A stretch of DNA of 64,000 nt from Thauera phenolivorans (GTDB lineage Bacteria; Pseudomonadota; Gammaproteobacteria; Burkholderiales; Rhodocyclaceae). The stretch is taken from positions 1 through 64,000 of the forward strand of contig NZ_MBFM01000004.1 of assembly GCF_001696715.1 (NCBI RefSeq), written 5' to 3'. This document shows, piece after piece, positions 47,007 to 56,674 of the stretch. Both the position numbers and the translations under genes were made by a program. Position 1 is the first letter of the stretch. Each line of letters opens with the position of its first letter. The notes beneath the pieces were generated by a model that was not told the DNA's origin, made no database searches, and worked only from the letters and a program-made list of their open reading frames with translations.

Positions 47007-47082
47007 GGGCCTTTAGCTCAACGGTTAGAGCAGAGGACTCATAATCCTTTGGTTGCGGGTTCGAATCCCGCAGGGCCCACCA
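47007..47082 (+). tRNA. tRNA-Ile2 (CAT anticodon, lysidine type)
   Basis: This 76-nt cloverleaf starts GGGCCTTTAGCTC and ends GGGCCCACCA. The anticodon stem-loop GGACTCATAATCC is almost the same as in E. coli ileX/ileY. The CAU anticodon would therefore be modified to lysidine-AU by TilS and read AUA as isoleucine. It is not an elongator or initiator tRNA-Met: it lacks their stem features. It lies 10 bases after rpoD. Its 3' half forms one side of the attachment site of the integrated element, and the full tRNA remains intact. Confidence 0.9.
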
Positions 47083-47132
47083 GCAGAATCAAGCACTTGC
47101 GCCAGTCCTTCGGGGCTGGCGTTTTGCTTTTC
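47035..47132. repeat. attL: direct repeat covering the tRNA-Ile2 3' half and terminator
   Basis: This 98-bp segment starts at GGACTCATAATCC in the anticodon arm. It is repeated at 55404-55501 with only two differences (47089 T/C and 47126 G/T). The first 54 bases are identical. It marks the left junction of the integrated element and leaves the tRNA functional. Confidence 0.95.
47100..47132 (+). terminator. tRNA-Ile2 terminator with UUCG tetraloop
   Basis: The stem CGCCAGTCC / GGGCTGGCG (one G-T pair) is closed by a TTCG tetraloop and followed by TTTTGCTTTTC. It lies 17 bases after the tRNA and is part of the direct repeat. A second copy lies at 55469-55501. Confidence 0.88.
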
Positions 47133-47140
47133 TTGGGTCG

Positions 47141-47157
47141 TGTAAGCGCTATGTAAG
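47141..47157. repeat. Left arm-type integrase site
   Basis: TGTAAGCGCTATGTAAG is found here, 8 bases inside attL, and again at 55269-55285 just upstream of the integrase gene. It contains two direct TGTAAG copies 11 bases apart, about one helical turn. This is the expected form of arm-type binding sites for a tyrosine integrase. Confidence 0.7.
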
Positions 47158-47436
47158 CGCCAGCGCGAGGTCAGCACCACGCGGCCGGCCTCGTCGTTTT
47201 TCGCGGTTAGCGGTGAAGGAAGGGGGTCCATGCGGTTCGCGCGCTCGGTTCCTCGTGATTTTTGGCGGCAGGCGGCCGCCGGGAATGCCCTTCAGGCGCG
47301 CCAGGAACGGCCACAGCAGGCGCAGCAGGCCGGGGTGATGCTCTGCCCTTGCCGGGCGCTTCAGCGGCTTGTGCGGCCTCTGGTGCGCGGTGCCCTTGGC
47401 GCAATGCAACACGCCAGAAGCGAAAGCAATGGTCAT
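47149..47436 (-). CDS. Doubtful small arginine-rich protein
   Basis: A 95-residue frame (MTIAFASGVLHCAKGTAHQR onward) is open here at the left end of the element. It is rich in Arg, Pro and His and shows no known motif. There is only a weak ribosome binding site. It lies downstream of the minus-strand terminator at 47548-47574 and runs into the arm-type site. It may be a chance frame in GC-rich DNA. Confidence 0.25.
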   Translation of the reverse strand: MTIAFASGVLHCAKGTAHQRPHKPLKRPARAEHHPGLLRLLWPFLARLKGIPGGRLPPKITRNRAREPHGPPSFTANREKRRGRPRGADLALALT

Positions 47437-47547
47437 GCCGTCGCTTCGCGTGCATTGCAGGGCTGGTGATGCGGCGTTTCTTGCTTGTGGTTGCTACTGT
47501 CATTGTGCGACGCAGCGTTGCGGCTAGGCCACCACGGACGGCAGGCG

Positions 47548-47574
47548 AAGAAAAACCGCCTCGGGGGCGGTTCA
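47548..47574 (-). terminator. Rho-independent terminator at the end of the capsid operon
   Basis: On the minus strand the stem AACCGCC / GGCGGTT with a 5-base loop is followed by TTTTTC. It comes after the cysteine-rich 84-aa gene and would end the main minus-strand transcript of the element. Confidence 0.85.
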
Positions 47575-47655
47575 GTTCGCAGGGGTGCGGGTTCAGTCCG
47601 GGCCGGGTGCGCGTCGAGGTCGTTTGCTGATTTTCGCGGGAATCAAAACGGGCGA

Positions 47656-47687
47656 AACCTGCATAGCGCAAGGCTATCGGACAGGTT
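47656..47687 (-). other. Two-part hairpin downstream of the 84-aa gene
   Basis: The minus strand reads AACCTG-tccg-ATAGC-cttgc-GCTAT-g-CAGGTT, an outer 6-bp and an inner 5-bp stem. It lies in the 3' untranslated part of the transcript, before the terminator. It could stabilise the mRNA or be a protein-binding or packaging signal; this is not known. Confidence 0.4.
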
Positions 47688-47780
47688 CAGTTTGATTGTT
47701 TTTGAAAACGGGGGTTTTTTCTGCGCGTGCGAATGGGCGCGGTTTCTTCGGTCGGCACCTTCTAGACTTTTCACCCGCCC

Positions 47781-48035
47781 CTACCCCGTCAGCCTCGCAA
47801 GCTCTCGCGCCAGTCGGTCGCGCTTCGGTTCCAGCAGCGGAAGCGTTCGCGCTCCCCATGCGCTCGGGTGCGCTTGGTACCGTGCAATCATGCCCTCCAC
47901 ATGCGCCAGGGCGGCGCGTATGCGGTCTAGGGCGGCTTCTTGCTTGCGTCGGCAGGCCACCCCACAGTAAAGGCGCTTGCGGCCTGTCTCAGGCTGCTCT
48001 AGGGGCTTTCCGCAGACTCTGCAATTCTCCGGCAT
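47781..48035 (-). CDS. Small four-cysteine protein of the element
   Basis: The 84-residue protein starts MPENCRVCGKPLEQ with CxxC, followed by YCGVACRRKQ with CxxxC. Together they form a probable zinc-binding knuckle. The remaining residues (about 32-84) are helical and basic. A very good GGAGGAA lies eight bases upstream of the ATG. I do not recognise the family. Such mini zinc proteins are common in phage genomes, and its place downstream of the capsid gene suggests late expression. Confidence 0.7.
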   Translation of the reverse strand: MPENCRVCGKPLEQPETGRKRLYCGVACRRKQEAALDRIRAALAHVEGMIARYQAHPSAWGARTLPLLEPKRDRLARELARLTG

Positions 48036-48090
48036 CGTCGGGTTCCTCCGAGCATGTGACCGTTTTTGGATGCGTTTATGGTTGAAAGGC

Positions 48091-48402
48091 TTACCGGACG
48101 GTTCCCAGTGGGGTCGCCCTCCATTCTGGAATGGCCCCTTGGGGTGTGAAGGTGTCGGCCACGCACTCACCACAAATGCTGCCGACGGTCGATTTATTGC
48201 GATGGCTCGACGGGCCACTTTCAGGGGTGAAACCTAACCCCCGCAATTCTTTGTCGCTTAGCTCACGACCAGCGCAGAACCCGCAGTGCGGAAAATCGGA
48301 ATCACGCGAAGTTCGCCCAAAACCGTCACGAGGTTCTTGGTGAAATCGTCGCCGCTGTAGCCGACCTCGATGCTGAAACCATCGGCCACGATAAGCTCGC
48401 AA
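48091..48402 (-). CDS. Overlapping frame with ClpX-like CxxC...CxxC pattern, start unclear
   Basis: This frame overlaps the 3' end of the capsid gene in another register and extends 167 bases beyond it. The non-overlapping part encodes CGFCAGRELSDKELRGLGF and then GSICGECV. This is a C4 arrangement like the zinc domain of ClpX and of small phage proteins. The only ATG (48402) would give a 145-base overlap, and no GTG lies in between; a TTG at 48246 would lose the first CxxC. Either a frameshift, an unusual start or a degraded gene is involved. The cysteine spacing suggests real coding history. Confidence 0.4.
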   Translation of the reverse strand: MRAYRGRWFQHRGRLQRRRFHQEPRDGFGRTSRDSDFPHCGFCAGRELSDKELRGLGFTPESGPSSHRNKSTVGSICGECVADTFTPQGAIPEWRATPLGTVR

Positions 48403-49334
48403 TGGCTCGAATCCAGCACCATCGCTGAACCGGCTGTCACGCTGGGACTCAGCACCACACGCAAGCCGCGCAGGTTCGGCTCAATCGCGCCCAGGTAGCT
48501 GCCGCTCAAATAGTGGTCATTCAAGGTGCCGGTTGCCGTGCAAATGCCCAGCCACGCCGCCGGACTCATGCAAACCACATCGGGCACAAAGCCATCGCCC
48601 TGCATGTCAGCCGCTGCGGCGGAAATGCTGTCAACCAATGCGGGGTAAGTGCTCGTGCTGAATCCCGTCGCCAGCGCGCCGAACCCAGCCCATGCGGGCG
48701 TGATGTTGCCGTCAAACAGCGCTGCATCAAGGGCGCTGCCAACGCTGCGCATCAAGGTGATATTGACGGCGCGCTTCAGTTCCTCGCTGTCTGCCAGGGC
48801 TTGTTTCGACATCTTGCAGTAACCCGCAATCGTCAACGCGCTTTGCGTGATGATGGTGTGGTCAGGACGGATTGCAGCCTTCGCAGCGCCTTCGCCAGCT
48901 TGAACCGCTGCCGCGCCTTGCGTGCCGGTAAACCGCGAATACTCAACAACTGAAGTGCTTGCCACGCGGCGCGATGGCATGGCGTTTTGCAGGCCAATGA
49001 TGCCGCCTTCAATGGCACCCACGCCGCCCGCGATGATGCTGCGGCCCGATGCGGTGCTCACAGGGTCGGCGGCGGCTTTGATTTCCAGGCGCAGGGATTT
49101 GGTTTTGCCGAACAGCTCGCGGTTGGCTTCGAACTGCGTCGCCACCTGCGCCCCGAGATTGTCAGCAGTGCCGCCGGGCATGGACTTCATGGTGACGCCG
49201 CCTTGCGCGAGGTCGGTCAGTGCCGCGTCAATCTTTGCGTCTTGCTCTGCCTTGGCAGCTTTGATTTCTGCGGAGAGCTTGGATTGCAGGGCCTTGATGC
49301 CCTCCTGGACTTCTTGAATAACGGTGGTGGACAT
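48258..49334 (-). CDS. Phage major capsid protein, HK97 fold
   Basis: The 358-residue protein builds icosahedral heads in HK97-type tailed phages. Residues 1-50 form a coiled-coil delta-domain-like start (VQEGIKALQSKLSAEIKAA). The core follows, with QALADSEELKRAVNITLMRSVGSALDAALFDG (split here for reading: QALADSEELK, then RSVGSALDAALFDG), the PDVVCMSPAAWLGI segment, and the typical C-terminal strand LGELRVIPIFRTAG. I chose the ATG at 49334 because AAGG lies upstream and the family N-terminus fits. The frame stays open for 61 more codons upstream without family-like sequence. No protease, portal or terminase gene is adjacent, which is unusual for a capsid gene. Confidence 0.85.
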   Translation of the reverse strand: MSTTVIQEVQEGIKALQSKLSAEIKAAKAEQDAKIDAALTDLAQGGVTMKSMPGGTADNLGAQVATQFEANRELFGKTKSLRLEIKAAADPVSTASGRSIIAGGVGAIEGGIIGLQNAMPSRRVASTSVVEYSRFTGTQGAAAVQAGEGAAKAAIRPDHTIITQSALTIAGYCKMSKQALADSEELKRAVNITLMRSVGSALDAALFDGNITPAWAGFGALATGFSTSTYPALVDSISAAAADMQGDGFVPDVVCMSPAAWLGICTATGTLNDHYLSGSYLGAIEPNLRGLRVVLSPSVTAGSAMVLDSSHCELIVADGFSIEVGYSGDDFTKNLVTVLGELRVIPIFRTAGSALVVS

Positions 49335-49550
49335 GATGATGCCTTTCAAATGTTGGATGAATCGCCTAATCCATCGCATCGCAAGCATCACGCAGGTGTC
49401 AGCAATTGGGTGTCTTTTCGCTGGCAGGGTCAGAATCGCTCTGTTGTCCAGCCCGAGAAAATCACTCGGCGCCTGCCGGATGTTTTTGCATCGCGGCATT
49501 GGCCGCGAGTTTAACACATAGGATAAAAAGCGCCCGCGTTTAAAGGTTTT
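49335..49550 (-). promoter_or_regulatory. Leader region of the capsid gene
   Basis: This 216-base gap separates the 71-aa gene from the capsid gene. It contains a perfect hairpin CGCGGC-ATTG-GCCGCG at 49492-49507. An AT-rich stretch just before it (TTTTTATCCTATGTGTTAAAC on the minus strand, given in part: TATCCTATGTGTTAAAC) may hold the capsid promoter. I could not fix exact -35 and -10 boxes. Confidence 0.35.
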
Positions 49551-49766
49551 TCACCAGTTCGCGCAGGCCACCAGCGGCCGGGCGGTTTGGGTTCGTCGTG
49601 CGCGGGCGGCGTTGCATGCTTGGTGCGCTTCGTCGGCAAGGCGTGCCACTGCCTCGGGGCTCACGCCAAATTCAGCGGCGGCCACGGTTGAAGCTCGCGC
49701 CAGGGGGTGCCCTTCCTCCAGCAGAAGGCGGGCGGCTTGCACTGCTCGGAAAAGGCTCAGGCTCAT
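49551..49766 (-). CDS. 71-aa helical protein of the element
   Basis: The protein begins MSLSLFRAVQAARLLLEEGH and continues ARASTVAAAEFGVSPEAVARLADEAHQAC. The middle part looks like a helix-turn-helix (AAEFGVSPEAVARL), so it may bind DNA. A GGAG lies about eleven bases upstream of the ATG. It sits between the repeat array and the capsid gene, a good place for a late-gene regulator. I do not recognise the family. Confidence 0.55.
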   Translation of the reverse strand: MSLSLFRAVQAARLLLEEGHPLARASTVAAAEFGVSPEAVARLADEAHQACNAARARRTQTARPLVACANW

Positions 49767-49821
49767 CGTTCAGGGCTCCAGAAAAGGGGGGCGGTTTGGC
49801 TCTCTGCTGCGGTCTGTCGGG

Positions 49822-49925
49822 TTCCCGTTTTTTCCTTCCCGCTGTTCCCGCCCCCATAAAGGGGGCGCGGGAAAAACGGGAAACCCCGGCGCTCCTGTTT
49901 TTTCCCGTTTCGGGAATTTCGGGAA
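49822..49925. repeat. Array of eight TTCCCG/CGGGAA repeats (candidate origin or regulator site)
   Basis: Within 104 bases there are eight copies of the hexamer. Forward copies start at 49822, 49836, 49845 and 49902. Inverted copies start at 49868, 49877, 49911 and 49920. Several pair as inverted repeats: TTCCCG-TTT-CGGGAA at 49902-49916, and a long stem around CCCCCATAAAGGGGG at 49845-49873. The array lies exactly between the primase-helicase gene and the 71-aa gene. In satellite elements of the P4 and PICI type the replication origin often lies beside the primase gene and consists of such repeats. Regulation of the capsid transcript is the other option. Confidence 0.65.
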
Positions 49926-49927
49926 AG

Positions 49928-51901
49928 TCACGGAAGCCACAACCAGCCCTCCTGGTGCTTCAGGTTTCCCCGGCCCACCAGTCCGGTAACGGCTTGTTGT
50001 GCGCGTTCCCGGCGGCGCTTCTGCTCGCACGGAAGCGCAGCGGCGGCGGCGGTTACTGCGGCCTCCAGTTCGATGCAGGGGCGGCCGGGCGGGGCCGATG
50101 CCTTCCCATAGGCGCGCACGTCCTTCAGCGCGGCGGCGATGGCGTCATATGCCAGCCGTTGATTACCTCCACCGGGCAGGGCGGCGCGGCGGATGCCTTC
50201 GGCGGGGCGCTCCGTCGGCTCGATTGCGCACGATGTAAGCGGCTCTCCGTCGCTGTCGGTGCCAAGTTCCACCACGTCGAGGCGGAAGGGGTGCGCGTCT
50301 CCGTCTGCACCGTCCTTGCTCTTGGCGGTTCGCCATTCCCGGCGGTCGTCGTTGCGGCTCACCTCGATTACGGCATCAAGCGCACCCAATAGGCTTGAAT
50401 GGCCTCGCATGCCTCGGGTCTGGTCCTTCCCCGAGTGATGTACGGCAAGCACCAGCCCGCCAAGCTCGGTTTGCAGGGCTTTCAGGCCGGCGATTACTTC
50501 GCCCATGTCGGCGCTCGTGTTCTCGTCCATTCCCGGCGCGGAAGCGGCCAGGGTGTCGATACACAGCACGCCACCGGCCAGCCCGGCGGCCTTTGCGGCT
50601 CGCACGATGTCGGCGCGGTCTGTCGGCTTGCGCACGTCGAGGGGCGCGGCAAGGAAGCGCATGCGTTCTGCTCCACCGTGTCGGGTCTGGTGCGCTTGCA
50701 CTCGTTGCGCAATGCCGGCTTCGCCCTCAAGGGCGATGTACAGCACAGGCGCGGACTGCACTCGATAGCCAAACCACGGCCGGCCGGTCGCAATGGCGGC
50801 AAGCACGTCGAGGGCTAGGAAGCTCTTACCGGAACCGGGCGGGCCGTAGATTGCGGCGATGCCCTCTTGTGGCAGCACACCACGCACGCGCCAGCGCACA
50901 GGCGGAAGGGCGGCGAGTTCGTCGGCGGTCATCAGGCGGAACCGTTGCGGCGGCGCTTTCGGGTTGCGCAGCAGTTCGGCCAGGGCGTCGAGGCCGTCCC
51001 TCTGATGCATGTCGTTCGCGTCGAAGTTCTGCGGACTGTCGGCGGGCATTTCCACCCAGGTGCATTCAATATCCCTTGCGATGCGTGCGCAGTGGTCCTC
51101 CTTGCCGGCGTCGGCAATCAGCACCAGCCGGGCGGCCGGATAGCGGGCCTGAAACGCGCGGGCTACCTGCTCCATGCGGCCGGCACCGAAGGCCACCACG
51201 GCAGGCATGCCGGCGGCGGCGTTGCAGCTCCATGCCTGCCCGATGCCCTCGCACACGGCGATGCTCGGCCCTTCGCCCGGCGGCGTGATTCGCCCCACCA
51301 CGAAAGCACCGGCCACCGGGCGGCCGGGCGCGTTCAGCTTCTTGCCCTCGCTCGGGATGAACTGCACCGTTTGCAGCTTGCCGGCCATGTCATAAGCCGG
51401 AACCATCAGCGCACCGTCGAGGGCTTGCCCGGCGATGCGCTCCGGGCCTCGATACACGCGCAGGCCGGCGGGGTTGCCTTCCTTCTTGATGATGTACGGG
51501 TGCGCCTCTGTCGCAGGCTCTCCGGCCTTCCATGCGCTTTCCACATCGAAGGGCGGGCGCTTGCCTTGCTCGGGGCGCTGCGGGGCTTGTGCGGGCTTCT
51601 GGCGCGTCTGGTGCGGTCGGTGTTGCGGGCCGTTGTGTTCCTGCCAGCCGGCCGCCTTCGCCATTGAAAAGAGGGTGCCGGCTTGAATGCCTCCGTCCTC
51701 CTTGATGCTTCTCCACACTGCGGCGCAATCAGCCTTCCCGGCGTAGTTCCCGGCGGTCGCGCTCCACTGCTCGAAGTCATCGAATTGCAGGCCGGCGGCC
51801 TTCGCTGCCATTGCGGCGCGCACCCATTCAGCGCGCTCCGCTCCGGCGTCGAGGATCCACAAGGCGCGGCGTGCGCGTTCGGGGTCGTGTCCGTTGTGCA
51901 T
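49928..51901 (-). CDS. Primase-helicase (PriCT-2, TOPRIM and RepA-like AAA domains)
   Basis: The 657-residue protein probably initiates and primes replication of the element. Residues 5-90 form a PriCT-2 domain (FDDFEQWSATAGNY, VWRSIKEDGG). A TOPRIM region at about 210-300 has E218 (VCEGIGQAWS) and D264 (LIADAGKED). A RecA/RepA-type ATPase follows at about 325-560, with Walker A YGPPGSGKS (352-360), Walker B CIDTLA (D449) and LAVHHSGKD. The C-terminal 80 residues may bind DNA. The ATG at 51901 lies 8 bases after the previous gene. This architecture is common in small integrated elements and phages. Confidence 0.85.
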   Translation of the reverse strand: MHNGHDPERARRALWILDAGAERAEWVRAAMAAKAAGLQFDDFEQWSATAGNYAGKADCAAVWRSIKEDGGIQAGTLFSMAKAAGWQEHNGPQHRPHQTRQKPAQAPQRPEQGKRPPFDVESAWKAGEPATEAHPYIIKKEGNPAGLRVYRGPERIAGQALDGALMVPAYDMAGKLQTVQFIPSEGKKLNAPGRPVAGAFVVGRITPPGEGPSIAVCEGIGQAWSCNAAAGMPAVVAFGAGRMEQVARAFQARYPAARLVLIADAGKEDHCARIARDIECTWVEMPADSPQNFDANDMHQRDGLDALAELLRNPKAPPQRFRLMTADELAALPPVRWRVRGVLPQEGIAAIYGPPGSGKSFLALDVLAAIATGRPWFGYRVQSAPVLYIALEGEAGIAQRVQAHQTRHGGAERMRFLAAPLDVRKPTDRADIVRAAKAAGLAGGVLCIDTLAASAPGMDENTSADMGEVIAGLKALQTELGGLVLAVHHSGKDQTRGMRGHSSLLGALDAVIEVSRNDDRREWRTAKSKDGADGDAHPFRLDVVELGTDSDGEPLTSCAIEPTERPAEGIRRAALPGGGNQRLAYDAIAAALKDVRAYGKASAPPGRPCIELEAAVTAAAAALPCEQKRRRERAQQAVTGLVGRGNLKHQEGWLWLP

Positions 51902-51909
51902 GCCGGGCC

Positions 51910-52335
51910 TCACTGCCAGCCGGCAAGGGTTGCGGCCACAGCCAGAAGCGCCAGCCAGCCGGCCAGCTCGGGGGCGATGAATCCGCCTTGCTTGCGCCTT
52001 TCGAGGGCGGCAGCGGTTGCGGGGACCTGCCGGTCGAGGCTGTATTCCGCAATCAGCGGGCGGCAGCGCGGATGCGCGATAAGGCGCGAGCGGATGCCCC
52101 ATCCGTCATCCTTCAGGCTCTTGATGTGCGCGGCCAATCTCCAGCCGGGCCGGTAGTCGGCTTGATTCAGCGGGCCTGCAATCAGGGCTTGCAGTGCGTC
52201 GGCTTTGCGGGTGCCCTCGGTCGGCCAGATAGCGGGCGTTGCAGCGGGCAGGCTGTCCGGGAAAAGGTCCGGCGCGGTATCATTGCGGCGCTTGTCCAGG
52301 GCGCTCGCTTCCTTCGGGGGGCGGGCGTTTTTCAT
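51910..52335 (-). CDS. 141-aa protein of the element, possible winged helix
   Basis: The protein starts MKNARPPKEASALDKRRNDT, with a polar N-terminus. A segment WRLAAHIKSLKDDGWGIRSR resembles a winged-helix DNA-binding motif, as in small phage proteins that modify or regulate DNA. The last 20 residues (LAGWLALLAVAATLAGWQ) are hydrophobic enough for a membrane anchor. The ATG overlaps the stop of the 154-aa gene (ATGA), so the two are translated together. Function unknown. Confidence 0.65.
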   Translation of the reverse strand: MKNARPPKEASALDKRRNDTAPDLFPDSLPAATPAIWPTEGTRKADALQALIAGPLNQADYRPGWRLAAHIKSLKDDGWGIRSRLIAHPRCRPLIAEYSLDRQVPATAAALERRKQGGFIAPELAGWLALLAVAATLAGWQ

Positions 52336-52796
52336 TGCTGCGCCTCCTTGTATTCGCGGACTGCCTCGGCAATCGCACTGCCCGGCGCACTCCCGATGCA
52401 CTCGGGCTCCAGTGAGCGCAGCAGGCGCGGGGTCAGGTACTCGGCTACAGCAGCGGCGGCGGATTGCTTGTCCTGCCCGAAAATCTGCGTCAGGCGCGCG
52501 GCCAGCCGGGCGGAAGCGTCGGTAATGCTGTCGGACTGGTACAGATCGGATAGCGCGTCCTCGGCAATGCCGCGCGCATTTGCTGCCTGGATTGCGCCGG
52601 CCTGCTGATGGCACTCCGTCTGGTCGGCGGCCTCGCGCAGCTTGTCGGCCATTTCGCGCAGGGCGCGGGCGTCTGTGCGGGCTCGCACAACGAAGCCAAG
52701 GGGGTCGTTGACCAGCAGCATGCCGGCGGCCGGGTCGGCTTGAAGGGCGCCCACCGGGCCGAGGCTGGCAATCGTGATGAGGGCGGGCGCGTTCAT
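52332..52796 (-). CDS. 154-aa protein of unknown function
   Basis: The protein (MNAPALITIASLGPVGALQA onward) is mostly helical, acidic and Ala-rich. It contains RALREMADKLREAADQTECH, a typical helical stretch. It overlaps both neighbours by 4 bases and therefore belongs to a tightly coupled early operon with the helix-turn-helix gene and the primase gene. I do not recognise the family. Confidence 0.65.
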   Translation of the reverse strand: MNAPALITIASLGPVGALQADPAAGMLLVNDPLGFVVRARTDARALREMADKLREAADQTECHQQAGAIQAANARGIAEDALSDLYQSDSITDASARLAARLTQIFGQDKQSAAAAVAEYLTPRLLRSLEPECIGSAPGSAIAEAVREYKEAQQ

Positions 52797-53029
52797 GCTG
52801 CCACCTCCTCGCCAGCGGCCAGCCGTTCGATTTGGTCAGCAGGCCACGCCAGGAAGCGATTAGCCAGCTTCAGCGGGCGAACGTTGCAGTAATGCCCATC
52901 GCGGCAAAGGGCGGCGCGCAGGGTTTGCGGGCGGATGTGAAGGGCGGCGGCGGCCTGCTCGGTCGAAAGGGTGCGGGCGGCGAGCGGCGCATCATTGCGC
53001 CATGCGGTCGGGATGGTTTGGGCTTGCAT
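52793..53029 (-). CDS. Small helix-turn-helix protein (AlpA/excisionase-like)
   Basis: The 78-residue protein has a MerR/AlpA-type helix-turn-helix: LSTEQAAAALHIRPQTLRAA, followed by a wing-like segment and FLAWPADQIERLAAGEEV. Proteins of this kind act as excisionases or as activators of integrase and early genes in satellites and prophages. It is the first gene of the coupled small-gene operon. A near-palindrome lies 31-46 bases upstream. Confidence 0.7.
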   Translation of the reverse strand: MQAQTIPTAWRNDAPLAARTLSTEQAAAALHIRPQTLRAALCRDGHYCNVRPLKLANRFLAWPADQIERLAAGEEVAA

Positions 53030-53059
53030 CGCGGGGGCTCCGTCGAGTGTTGACGGTGC

Positions 53060-53075
53060 CCATTACATGCAATGG
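53060..53075. promoter_or_regulatory. Near-palindromic operator candidate
   Basis: CCATTACATGCAATGG matches its own reverse complement at 14 of 16 positions. It lies just upstream of the helix-turn-helix gene and could be its autoregulatory operator. TTTGCAAA-like motifs occur within 40 bases. Confidence 0.45.
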
Positions 53076-53124
53076 AATGCCCCCGGTCGCCAGTTTGCAA
53101 AAACGAGGGCGAAAGTCTGCAAAG

Positions 53125-53745
53125 TCAGATTCGCGGCCAGTTCATCCGAAGGGCCTTGCGGAAGGGCTTTTGCTGGCGCTCATGCTCGTTGAATAGGTCG
53201 GTCGCCTTGCGCTGGCAAATCGGCAAGCGCAGTTCCTCGCGCGCTCGCTTGATGCAGGCGTCTTTGCTCAGGTGCGGTTCCTTGGCGTGAATATCCCAAA
53301 CGCGCACGGCAAGGCTAACCGCTTGCGAGTGGGTGCGGCGCACGTTCTGGCCTCGCTTCCCGGCGGGCATTCGGCGCGCAACGCCGAAAGCGTCATCAAG
53401 CGTTACCGGCTCGGCTTCAAAGCGTCTGATGCGCTCCTGAAACCCGGTTGCGCACCAGTACGGAAGCGGCAGATTCTGGCGCGCACACTCCCGGATTGCC
53501 CACAGAATCGCGGAACTGTCGCCGGCCTCGTATTTCAGCCGATACACCTCCAGCAGTTCATGCACATCTAGCAGTGACTGCATATGCAAGGCGTCGCCAT
53601 CCGGCCGCCATGACCAGCGGATGCCGGTTCGGAATCCATGCGCACAGTCTCCCCATGCCTGCTCGATGCGGGCTAGCTGTTCCTCGTCCTCGCTCGGTCG
53701 CATGTCGGGCGGCGCAAGCTCAAATGCCTTTCTGAAAGGGTTCAT
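53125..53745 (-). CDS. 206-aa protein of the element, unknown function
   Basis: The protein begins MNPFRKAFELAPPDMRPSED and is charged and mixed helical. It contains WSWRPDGDALHMQSLLDVHEL and a C-terminal basic part with FNEHERQQKPFRKALRMNW. The FRKAFE and FRKALR segments at its two ends are a curious echo. No known domain is recognised. GGAG lies ten bases before the ATG. It follows the integrase after 100 bases. Confidence 0.65.
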   Translation of the reverse strand: MNPFRKAFELAPPDMRPSEDEEQLARIEQAWGDCAHGFRTGIRWSWRPDGDALHMQSLLDVHELLEVYRLKYEAGDSSAILWAIRECARQNLPLPYWCATGFQERIRRFEAEPVTLDDAFGVARRMPAGKRGQNVRRTHSQAVSLAVRVWDIHAKEPHLSKDACIKRAREELRLPICQRKATDLFNEHERQQKPFRKALRMNWPRI

Positions 53746-53845
53746 TTCTCGCGCTCCTTCGATGCGCTCCTTCGTTTGGGTGCCGCGCCAGCCGGGTGAA
53801 GGTCTCCCGGTTTTCTCCCCGTCGGGATAGGCGCGGCATGCTCGG

Positions 53846-55228
53846 TCAGGCCACGCGCAGCGCGGGGGCGGCCTCTTGCTCGGTCGGCTGTTCGATGCCG
53901 GCTTCGCTCAGAATCCAGGCTTCAATCTTCGTGTGCCACTGGCGCAGCAGGTCGATAGGGCGGACTCGGTAATGCTTTTCAGCGGTCGCGCTCGGCTTGT
54001 GCCCTTGGATTTGCGCCACGATGCCGGCGGGCACTTCGCACCACTCGGACAGGCTGCCGAAACTGCGGCGCAGGCCGTGAATCGTGATGTTCGGCAAGCC
54101 GGCATCCCTCAAGGCGCGGTTGTGCGCAATGCGCGGCTCTTGCAGGTAGCCAGAAGCGGCGGTCTTGCTGGCGAATACCCACGGCGAAGGCTCCCAGGCG
54201 TCGAGGTCGTTTTTGATGCGCTTGCCGTGAAGGATGCGGAACTCAGCCGGCCGGGTGTCGTTGCGGCGCTTCAGGTCGCGCAGCAGGCCGGAAACATAGG
54301 GCGTTAGCGGAATGGTGCGCTCGCCTTCCACCTTGTCGCGGATGATGATTTTGTTCCAGCGAAAATCCACGTCCTCCCATCGCATTTCGGCCACTTCTTC
54401 CCGGCGTGCGCCAGTCAGCAGGGCCACTTGCAGATAAGCGGCCTGCACCGGGTTGGTGATGGCGCGCACTTGCTCGAACCAAGGGCGCAGCATTTCGCGT
54501 TCTAGGGCGTCTCGCTTGGCTTGGCGCTTGGGCAGTTCCTCGCGCACTGCCTTCGATGCGCAGGCGTCGGCGTGAATCTGCTTCTGGTACTCGGGGCGGT
54601 CGGCGCACCAGTTCAGGAAGCCACGCAGCAGGCGGAAGGCCAGCGCGGCTTGCGTCGGGCGCTTGGCGGCTTCGTCCTTCAGCCAGGATTGCACGCGGGC
54701 GGCGTCGATTTTCGCCAGCGGCAGCACCAGCAGCGGGCGCAGCAGGCCGGGCTGTGTCTTGCCGTCCTCGGTCGTCTTGCGGCCTCGGGTGATGGTCTCG
54801 CCTCCCTCTTTGCTCAGGGTGACGTGATTCCGGTAACTGGTTTCGCCCCACTTCGGCCGGCGGGCCTCAAGGTAGGTTGCCCAGGCTTCCAGGGCGGGCG
54901 CTTCGATGCGGCGGGCTTCCTCGCGCTTGGCCTCGCTGGCGGCGATGCGTTCGGCCTTCTCTTGGCGCGGGTCGGTGCCCTGGTCGACAAGGGTTTGCAG
55001 GCGGCGCGCTTCGGTGCGGGCGTCGTCAATTCCCCATGCGCGGGAATCCCCGATGGTGACGCGAAAATCCTTGTTGTTCAGCTTGCCTTGATAGACGAAG
55101 GCTTTCGCGCCAGCGGTCGCACGCAGGGCAAGGCCGGGCGCTTCGGAATCCCACAAAAAGGCTTGGGCCTTGCCGGTCGGGCAGGCGAAGTCACGGATGC
55201 GGCCGGCGGTCAGTTTGGTGCGTGCCAT
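53846..55228 (-). CDS. int: Tyrosine integrase of the element
   Basis: The 460-residue protein carries out integration and excision at tRNA-Ile2. The N-terminal about 90 residues form the DUF4102-like arm-binding domain (RIRDFACPTGKAQAFLWDSE). A core-binding domain follows. The catalytic set is R275 (TGARREEVAEM), H384 and R387 (IHGLRRSF), H410 (QGHKPSAT) and the nucleophile Y420 (EKHYRVR). The ATG at 55228 has GGAGA nine bases upstream. All catalytic residues are intact, so the protein should be active. It reads away from attR into the element. Confidence 0.94.
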   Translation of the reverse strand: MARTKLTAGRIRDFACPTGKAQAFLWDSEAPGLALRATAGAKAFVYQGKLNNKDFRVTIGDSRAWGIDDARTEARRLQTLVDQGTDPRQEKAERIAASEAKREEARRIEAPALEAWATYLEARRPKWGETSYRNHVTLSKEGGETITRGRKTTEDGKTQPGLLRPLLVLPLAKIDAARVQSWLKDEAAKRPTQAALAFRLLRGFLNWCADRPEYQKQIHADACASKAVREELPKRQAKRDALEREMLRPWFEQVRAITNPVQAAYLQVALLTGARREEVAEMRWEDVDFRWNKIIIRDKVEGERTIPLTPYVSGLLRDLKRRNDTRPAEFRILHGKRIKNDLDAWEPSPWVFASKTAASGYLQEPRIAHNRALRDAGLPNITIHGLRRSFGSLSEWCEVPAGIVAQIQGHKPSATAEKHYRVRPIDLLRQWHTKIEAWILSEAGIEQPTEQEAAPALRVA

Positions 55229-55249
55229 GTTCTCGGTCTCCCTTGCAGT

Positions 55250-55285
55250 CGCTTACATCGGGGTTCCATGTAAGCGCTATGTAAG
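55250..55285. repeat. Right arm-type integrase sites upstream of int
   Basis: This region contains TGTAAGCGCTATGTAAG at 55269-55285, identical to 47141-47157. An inverted copy CGCTTACAT lies at 55250-55258. The sites lie 22-57 bases upstream of the integrase start and may also let the integrase repress its own gene. Confidence 0.7.
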
Positions 55286-55403
55286 TGGATTCTAGAATAT
55301 GGCTCAACATCAAGCAATGCAGAGAATCGCCTTTTCCCTTGCTTTTCCGTCGTTTAGCGTTTTGTCTGCATACTGCTCAACGTCGAAAAAGGGGCTTTCC
55401 CTC

Positions 55404-55501
55404 GGACTCATAATCCTTTGGTTGCGGGTTCGAATCCCGCAGGGCCCACCAGCAGAACCAAGCACTTGCGCCAGTCCTTCGGGGCTGGCGTTTTTCTTTT
55501 C
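55404..55501. repeat. attR: second copy of the tRNA-Ile2 3' half and terminator
   Basis: This 98-bp copy differs from attL at two positions. It starts in the anticodon arm (GGACTCATAATCC) and contains the T arm, acceptor 3' strand and CCA, but no 5' half, so it is not a tRNA gene. The UUCG terminator copy is at 55469-55501. Chromosomal sequence resumes directly after it. Confidence 0.95.
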
Positions 55502-55545
55502 GGGCGATGCGGAGCACGGCCCTTCTCCTCCGCCGAGCCGCAGGC

Positions 55546-56526
55546 TCAGGGCTCACCGTGCCGCTCCAGGGCCCGCGCCGCACCGATCAACGCCGCATGC
55601 GGCGCGCGGATCACCCAGGTCGGGATCGCGGCGAGATAGCCGCTGAAACGGCCCTTGCTCTCGAAGCGCGCGCGGAAGCCCGAGCGCACGAAGAAGTCCC
55701 CCAGCTTGGGCACGATGCCGCCACCGATGTAGATGCCGCCGCGCGCGCCGAGGGTGAGGGCGAGATCGGCGGCCACGGTGCCGAGCATCGCGCAGAAGCT
55801 CCCGAGCGCTGCGACGCACAGGGGGCAAGTGCCCGCCAGCGCGCGCGCGCTCACTTCGGCCGGGGTGAGCGCCTCGCCCACTTCACCACGCAGCGCGGCG
55901 TGCGCCTCGTACAGTGCCAGCAGCCCCGGGCCGGACAATGCGCGCTCGGCGGAAACGTGCGGGTATCGCGTCGCGAGCCGCGCGAGCAGGGCCGCCTCGC
56001 CGGCGTCGCTCGCCGGCAGGGTGACGTGGCCGCCCTCGGCCTCGAGCGCGACGTAGTCATCGCCGCAGGGGATCAGGCCCGACACGCCGAGGCCGGTGCC
56101 GGCACCGAGCAGACCGATCGCCCGGCCCGCAACAGGCCTGCCGCCGCCGACCGCGAGCAGGTCCTCGCCCGCCAGCGCGGGCAGCGAGAGGGCGAGCGCG
56201 GTGAAGTCATTCACGACCTCGAGCCGCTCGAAGCGCAGTGTCTGACGCAGCCCGCGGATCGAGAACACCCAGTCGAGATTGGTCATCCGCACATCGTCAC
56301 CGGTGACCGGGGTGGCGATGCCGAAGGCGCACCAGCGTGGCCGCGCCCCGGGCAAAGCCTCGAGATAGTGCGCGATGGCCTCGGCCGGCCCGGCGAAGTC
56401 GCCGCTCCGCAGCGTGCGTGTCGCCTCGGGGGCGGCACCCGGCGCGGTGACGAGGGCGAAACGCGCATGCGTTCCACCAATGTCGCCGACCAGGTGCGGA
56501 TAGGTATGAAGGGATGGAGCACTCAT
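55546..56526 (-). CDS. glk: Glucokinase
   Basis: Glk phosphorylates glucose with ATP. The 326-residue protein has the family start HLVGDIGGTHARFAL (phosphate 1 motif), EVVNDFTALALSLP with the catalytic aspartate, GLLGAGTGLGVSGLI and GGIVPKLGDFF. The length matches E. coli Glk (321). Its stop lies 44 bases right of attR, so the element inserted between tRNA-Ile2 and glk without damage to either. Confidence 0.94.
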   Translation of the reverse strand: MSAPSLHTYPHLVGDIGGTHARFALVTAPGAAPEATRTLRSGDFAGPAEAIAHYLEALPGARPRWCAFGIATPVTGDDVRMTNLDWVFSIRGLRQTLRFERLEVVNDFTALALSLPALAGEDLLAVGGGRPVAGRAIGLLGAGTGLGVSGLIPCGDDYVALEAEGGHVTLPASDAGEAALLARLATRYPHVSAERALSGPGLLALYEAHAALRGEVGEALTPAEVSARALAGTCPLCVAALGSFCAMLGTVAADLALTLGARGGIYIGGGIVPKLGDFFVRSGFRARFESKGRFSGYLAAIPTWVIRAPHAALIGAARALERHGEP

Positions 56527-56674
56527 CTCGCGACCTCGTAATCCTCCGCTGCCCGCCCGGGAGCCCGAACCGGCGCTCGTTCACGCCAGTTTCGCCCCGG
56601 CTCCGTGCACTCTTTTACAGATTGGACCGAATTGTGCTTGAATGATTTGACACTCCTCGGATCCCGGGCCCGCC

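Follow-up and report, generated by a model that had tools for sequence, protein, structure and literature searches.

A tRNA-integrated island of Thauera phenolivorans resembling a phage satellite with a single capsid gene

The stretch of DNA analyzed here, termed the window, comprises positions 1-64,000 of the forward strand of contig NZ_MBFM01000004.1 from Thauera phenolivorans (GCF_001696715.1). It harbors a compact island between direct repeats at a tRNA gene. With moderate confidence, and largely by analogy to characterized satellites, this island is read as a helper-dependent phage satellite similar to the phage-inducible chromosomal islands (PICIs), in which a lone major capsid protein (MCP) would redirect the head assembly of a helper phage. 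Islands with an MCP gene suggest a recurrent type. Fifteen have been mapped at seven kinds of tRNA gene, with clean ends and a recurring gene order, a pattern that a first-pass annotation of the sequence had named as support for a real element family. Loci and genomes are designated by L and G numbers, respectively.

The island is bounded by two direct repeats of 98 nt with two mismatches (47035-47132 and 55404-55501, both given on the plus strand), spaced 8,369 bp apart; these figures, contained in the first-pass annotation, were obtained again on re-measurement. The pair is not a chance occurrence, because the next best direct repeat at the same scale comprises only 21 bp and scores 18 versus 92. 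The first copy of the attachment site (att) begins within a tRNA gene with the anticodon CAT (47007-47082, plus strand), the integration target. The element sits at the 3′ part of this gene and leaves it intact. An intact tRNA-Ile2 had been annotated, of which the intact gene and the CAT anticodon stand. The gene was labelled Met by ARAGORN, and the name Ile2 is presumed from its likeness to E. coli ileX.

Gene calls were made with our own script, and many gene names were given by eye (sigma factor, glucokinase, IS66, tape measure, several integrases and helix-turn-helix (HTH) proteins, and the protease of L075). The script called eight genes in the island, all on the minus strand, in line with the nearly uniform orientation seen at first; zn85 was added by hand. 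Ten open reading frames (ORFs) of the window were scanned against family libraries (Pfam, phrog). An intact tyrosine integrase of 460 aa (53846-55228) matched PF00589 (1.1e-14) and PF13356 (2.3e-11). It is followed by hth78 (52793-53029), an AlpA/excisionase-like small HTH protein with weak family matches (HTH_17 0.011, below the cut-off) and homologs in equivalent position in relatives. The primase-helicase (49928-51901) matched PriCT_2 (7e-15), AAA_25/RepA (2e-39) and, just under the cut-off, Toprim_3 (7e-6). Its start was revised to about 51901, giving 657 aa, because relatives align from there on. The gene of an HK97-type MCP (48258-49334) encodes 358 aa after its start was revised to 49334. 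The family scans thus agree with the integrase, HTH protein, primase-helicase and HK97-fold capsid proposed earlier, apart from the HTH match below the cut-off. The ten ORFs gave no match to a portal, terminase or protease family, and no tail gene was recognized, which bears out the earlier view of a lone capsid gene from a head block. General scans of the window ORFs named no family of the P4 genes Sid, Psu, delta and alpha primase; individual P4 proteins were not searched.

The window MCP matched PF05065 (2.8e-11), phrog_10 (1.2e-16) and PDB entry 9lbm (1.7e-18), with HK97 gp5 among the best matches. Weak additional matches to a baseplate hub (phrog_184, 0.0096) and a neck protein (phrog_5223, 0.098) were taken as coiled-coil chance, and these identities were rejected. 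The MCPs of the islands carry an N-terminal extension of about 65-160 aa ahead of the PF05065 domain, which has been likened to those of HK97 and of the SaPIbov5 protein Ccm (PMC8569155). In the window MCP it has the size of a delta domain, a putative assignment judged from the limits of the family match and a helix modelled with low confidence. An imperfect inverted repeat at 49480-49519, between p71 and the MCP gene, may be an operator or promoter region that serves the capsid gene.

The 15 mapped islands with MCP are those of the window, L055, L057, L061, L070, L075, L096, L127, L303, L308, L309, L310, L312, L315 and L328. They share a plan in which one end is formed by the integrase and the last large gene is the MCP, the IS66-like genes of L315 aside. 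A primase was recognized in 11 islands. The MCP is the sole recognized head gene in nine of the 15. L075 encodes a separate protease (named by eye, and also a seed of the protease HMM), while the protease is fused to the MCP in L096 (PF04586) and L328 (own HMM). A small terminase was found in L310 (8e-17), with a homolog in L315 and a weak match in L061 (0.002). L057, L127 and L308 reside in one genome, and the MCP gene is identical in L057 and L127. The sigma-factor and DnaG-like genes next to L055 also adjoin the window island (by eye). Besides the ten window ORFs, the library scans covered 35 listings from eleven other capsid islands, with none for L127, L315 and L328 and with six islands represented by one or two proteins only. 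A scan with our own HMMs at E 0.1 found no portal, large terminase or connector in 14 of the 15 islands (all except L328). The power of these HMMs is limited: among eight prophage control loci, five yielded portal and terminase (three of them seeds), two MCP only and one terminase only, so that portal or terminase was missed in three of the eight. A protease-MCP fusion is the only recognized head gene in L096, L328 and L305, the last on a truncated contig, unlike the arrangement in the window.

In 50 genomes, PF05065 had 22 matches in 17 genomes, and PF04860 had five, four of them beside a capsid gene. The 22 matches were classed as 13 capsid islands, seven full prophages, one truncated contig and one hybrid; L304, L307 and L311 were called full prophages by gene content read by eye. 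This set was chosen mainly for holding islands and favors them, which does not apply to the genus set. Within the genus of the window, 29 genomes contained seven PF05065 matches, six in capsid islands, one of which (L327) has weak ends with only a 14-bp repeat, and one in a full prophage. L306 (G555) is a 14-kb island at tRNA-Val that holds a capsid fragment together with a gene resembling a tape measure (by eye); neither a plain satellite nor a full prophage, it was not counted among the capsid islands.

Homologs of the backbone genes are widespread. The primase had homologs at E 1e-3 in 117 of 297 same-family genomes, many over part of the protein, and the integrase at E 1e-60 in 51 of the 297 and at E 1e-90 in 37 of 399 genomes of the order, the window genome being included in each count. 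The 28 named primase loci belong mostly to Rhodocyclaceae, Comamonadaceae and other Burkholderiales, with few others. Att repeats overlapping a tRNA gene were mapped across the order for 66 islands, which have a related integrase except for two placed manually (L070, L075); the number includes two repeats of one place (L078, L167). After removal of the duplicates L078, L167 and L147, the collection comprises 71 islands, 15 with and 56 without a recognized capsid. The closest relative of the primase (91%) lies on an IMG/VR contig, with no capsid in the 2 kb left before the contig end. Another island with the same backbone (L046 in G343, tRNA-Lys; integrase 80%, primase about 60%) carries exonuclease-, resolvase- and SSB-like genes (by eye) at the capsid position of the window.

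Fourteen of the 15 capsid islands measure 7,990-10,376 bp; L315, with its IS66-like genes, measures 12,128 bp. Without L315 the standard deviation is 657, versus 1,951 for the 27 islands that have a primase and no capsid (permutation p 0.004), and the spread of all 15 is narrower than that of the 56 islands without capsid (p 0.001). L327, with its 14-bp repeat, and L305, on the truncated contig, were omitted from the test. The narrow size range is suggestive only, because the stretches fetched were limited to about 20 kb and the capsid islands were gathered partly by a different search.

The origin of the capsid genes was approached by a tree of 28 MCPs, 14 from satellites and 14 from prophages or phages. 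The phage sample is small and the branches are long; L127 and L315 (near-copies) and prophage MCPs such as those of L074, L307 and L325 are not included. The tree needs seven label changes (gains or losses), at least five of them forced by well-supported branches, and a single satellite clade is rejected (p-AU 0.0019). The MCPs of L327, L312, L055 and L309 form a clade of satellites only (support 100/98); those of the window and L075 group together on long branches. L310 (G553) and L315 (G580), from different genera and at different tRNA genes, are 92% identical over a 2.6-kb module that encodes the MCP and a small terminase. The dN/dS value of 0.17 points to purifying selection on this MCP pair; that of the small terminase is 0.08. 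The replication genes of the two islands differ, and L315 also carries the IS66-like genes. Modules seem to have been swapped between islands, as a near-identical MCP-terminase module occurs in two genera beside differing replication genes. In IMG/VR, close relatives numbered one weak for the window MCP and none for those of L055 and L061, versus at least 596 for a prophage MCP. At E 1e-3, the matching isolate-phage records numbered 38 for the window MCP (best 32% over 64%), none for L055, 851 for L061, 38 for L057 and 885 for L070. By these comparisons the island capsids appear to be phage-derived, yet not close copies of known phages, since all isolate-phage matches were below 60% identity.

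Two non-coding elements accompany the genes. Directly 3′ of the primase, eight copies of CGGGAA/TTCCCG are packed into about 105 bp around a GC-rich hairpin (49822-49925). This iteron array is a candidate replication origin. Among 48 regions located 3′ of primase homologs, 15 have at least four copies and the others a CGGGGA variant or none; the mean per 250 bp is 2.4 in these regions versus 0.19 in upstream and coding controls. Iterons follow the primase in the capsid islands of the window, L055 and L057. Near the tRNA end lies a conserved 20-bp element, CACGCGCAGAAAAAA(T/C)CCCC (47711-47730, minus strand), a candidate cis site. Allowing three mismatches, it was found in 10 of the 71 islands, on some of which the motif had itself been defined, and its reversed control in none of the 71. 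Nine of these ten matches lie 467-787 bp inward from the island end that is distal to the integrase; the match in L112 is at the integrase end and probably due to chance. The island end of a genus mate at tRNA-Lys (L324) is 89% identical to the window over 911 bp; the block of this alignment that contains the element has 1 mismatch per 100 bp. A scan of IMG/VR revealed no phages with the element. Among 249 family genomes it had seven matches: two perfect matches belong to islands (in the window genome and in G525), and the other five, with one mismatch each, are in host DNA and look like chance.

Several known systems resemble the island, and they are compared here as far as the consulted extracts of the papers describe them. 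Ccm of SaPIbov5, a capsid protein homolog of 355 residues with an HK97-like fold and a delta domain, alone redirects the heads of phi12, a change of head size for which no other satellite protein is needed (PMC8569155). SaPIbov5 and the window island thus each have a single capsid homolog of similar length. SaPIbov5 differs as a Staphylococcus PICI of other organization from an unrelated host group, and the role of Ccm is proven, while that of the window MCP is inferred. The Gram-negative PICIs EcCICFT073 and PmCI172 also encode an MCP homolog (PMC6092414). The EcCICFT073 region, identified by its MCP and decoration genes, shares with the window island the order integrase, small HTH protein, primase and MCP, one transcription direction, compactness, and the lack of portal, large terminase and tail. 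Its HTH protein is a true AlpA (PF05930, 3e-18), its primase is of the D5_N/DUF5906 type and its MCP of the lambda E type (PF03864), accompanied by a decoration protein. The window island encodes a PriCT_2/Toprim/AAA_25 primase and an HK97-type MCP, leaves the AlpA family unmatched, and has no Pfam family in common with EcCICFT073 among the replication proteins. A tyrosine integrase with a specific att site and one transcription direction are traits of Gram-negative PICIs that the island possesses. The position of its iterons, 3′ of the replication gene, is that reported for E. coli PICIs (PMC6092414); their origin function is predicted. PmCI172 of Pasteurella, with an MCP homolog and small heads, is likened by description, not by sequence (PMC6092414). 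The capsid-forming PICIs (cfPICIs) are satellites with their own MCP as part of a whole head set, their capsids having been recruited from phages several times (PMC10690885, PMC11389934). They differ in carrying protease, portal, connectors and terminases; none of these was recognized in the window island, and the cfPICI reading was ranked lower. VEIMEs (virion-encapsidated integrative mobile elements) and tycheposons could include members with MCP only (PMC10872708, PMC10803314).

The island had been described as a further reduced or different type of satellite. Retained as the best reading is a phage satellite whose head block is represented by the capsid gene alone; the further reduced or different type is not fully supported, as MCP satellites without portal have already been published. 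The window island is a variant of a known strategy, because SaPIbov5 (PMC8569155), EcCICFT073 and PmCI172 (PMC6092414) bear an MCP without a portal in the extracts consulted. A search for satellites in Betaproteobacteria or Rhodocyclaceae found no paper, most subscription papers and preprints lying outside it.

In the proposed life cycle, a helper phage would trigger excision, and the small HTH protein may act as regulator or excisionase. The excised circle would be replicated by the primase-helicase, starting at the iterons, and the helper would contribute the portal, protease, terminase and tail as well as lysis. The island MCP would join or replace the helper MCP, as Ccm does for SaPIbov5, yielding small heads that fit the island and not the helper genome. 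The 20-bp element near the tRNA end may serve packaging, which is a guess. The small-head mechanism is inferred by analogy, together with the weak size evidence.

Several results weigh against a helper-dependent satellite of this kind. Deletion of the MCP gene in EcCICFT073 changed neither transfer nor interference (PMC6092414, extract). Searches of the window genome found neither a PF04860 portal nor a PF03354 terminase, and no PF05065 gene besides that of the island. A resident helper of that type was therefore not seen; other portal and terminase families were not searched. No primase was recognized in L070, L075, L315 and L328, iterons are missing after the primase of L061 and L096, and the AlpA family PF05930 remained unmatched by the ten window ORFs. 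The size comparison of all 15 capsid islands with the 27 primase-bearing islands gave p 0.097 by standard deviation and 0.011 by interquartile range, and Levene tests against primase-bearing islands gave p 0.20 (eight capsid islands) and 0.26 (14). The satellite label on the MCP tree is only weakly non-random, with 34 of 500 shuffles as low, and two nonsynonymous and no synonymous changes separate the copies of a 69-aa gene in the L310/L315 module. AlphaFold modelled the MCP poorly, both by itself and together with 23 viral relatives (pLDDT 38 and 43).

The unchanged transfer in the EcCICFT073 mutant also fits a satellite whose MCP serves as an anti-helper device, either a dominant-negative subunit or a decoy, with the island DNA entering normal heads of the helper, possibly as multimers. 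Ccm likewise blocks growth of the helper (PMC6092414, extract). This explanation is considered unlikely, though worth keeping in mind; it sits less well with the narrow size range, itself weak, and with the three islands that encode a small terminase close to the MCP. An integrative mobilizable element that spreads by conjugal transfer and carries an incidental capsid gene would account for the 56 of 71 islands without recognized capsid, and related helicases occur on plasmids too. It is improbable given the recurrence of capsid and small terminase, and the ten window ORFs contain no relaxase family; a search for oriT was not made.

Still less probable is a prophage deletion remnant that kept integrase, primase and capsid by chance. 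The MCP does come from a phage family, its stretch has a GC content of about 0.60 versus 0.68 around it, and the MCPs of L061 and L070 have their 851 and 885 distant isolate-phage relatives. Against a remnant stand like-built islands with mapped ends at many tRNA genes, purifying selection on one MCP pair, an MCP clade of satellites only, iterons kept in part of the relatives, and the near absence of close IMG/VR relatives of three island MCPs. The same region inside a full prophage, the setting that the first-pass annotation had associated with a remnant, was not seen; the full prophages found carry other MCPs in another context. That the HK97-fold protein forms an encapsulin-like host compartment is hardly credible: its gene stands alone, as such a compartment gene might, but its best matches are the phage heads listed above, it resides in a mobile island and the N-terminal extension is kept.

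For the helper-dependent satellite, a wider proposal is possible, if just short of probable. Betaproteobacteria would harbor a large unrecognized class of 8-10-kb capsid-only satellites, in which varied tRNA-island backbones repeatedly captured one MCP from different phages and impose small heads on helpers. Many 'orphan' capsid genes in these genomes would then be working satellite genes and not prophage debris. In the literature consulted, as far as the extracts go, head redirection by a lone capsid has been shown experimentally for SaPIbov5. Lone capsids on several backbones, with MCPs that are not one clade, would offer a natural series on how one foreign subunit sets head size, and they caution against taking a lone capsid gene as a dependable sign of a prophage.

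The remaining genes of the island are small and on the minus strand. Zn85 (47781-48035) is a zinc-ribbon-like protein with a 33-residue match to the HNH-endonuclease family phrog_1271 (4.7e-4) and homologs at the same island end in the genus mates L309 and L324. The p71 gene (49551-49766) lies upstream of the MCP gene; in L303 a homolog with 77% identity is placed two genes ahead of the MCP. A possible winged-helix protein, p142 (51910-52335), precedes the primase in many relatives. No family was assigned to p154 (52332-52796) and p206 (53125-53745); the start of the latter is uncertain, the caller preferring 152 aa.

The flanks comprise a sigma-70-type gene before the tRNA gene and a glucokinase-like gene on the other side, both named by eye. 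A clean empty site was sought in the 29 genus genomes and none was shown; the right flank of the window (55502-56600) is absent from the loci of other genomes, which extend at most 1.5 kb past the match. A third copy of part of att, 67 nt and exact, is located in the same genome about 320 bp from a contig end (L299, G000:C7:723808-723874), possibly the scar or end of another element. In the genus mates L270-L293, the DNA to the right of the rpoD-adjacent tRNA gene (window position 47082) is of several types, some with integrase-like genes, so this site looks like an integration hotspot.

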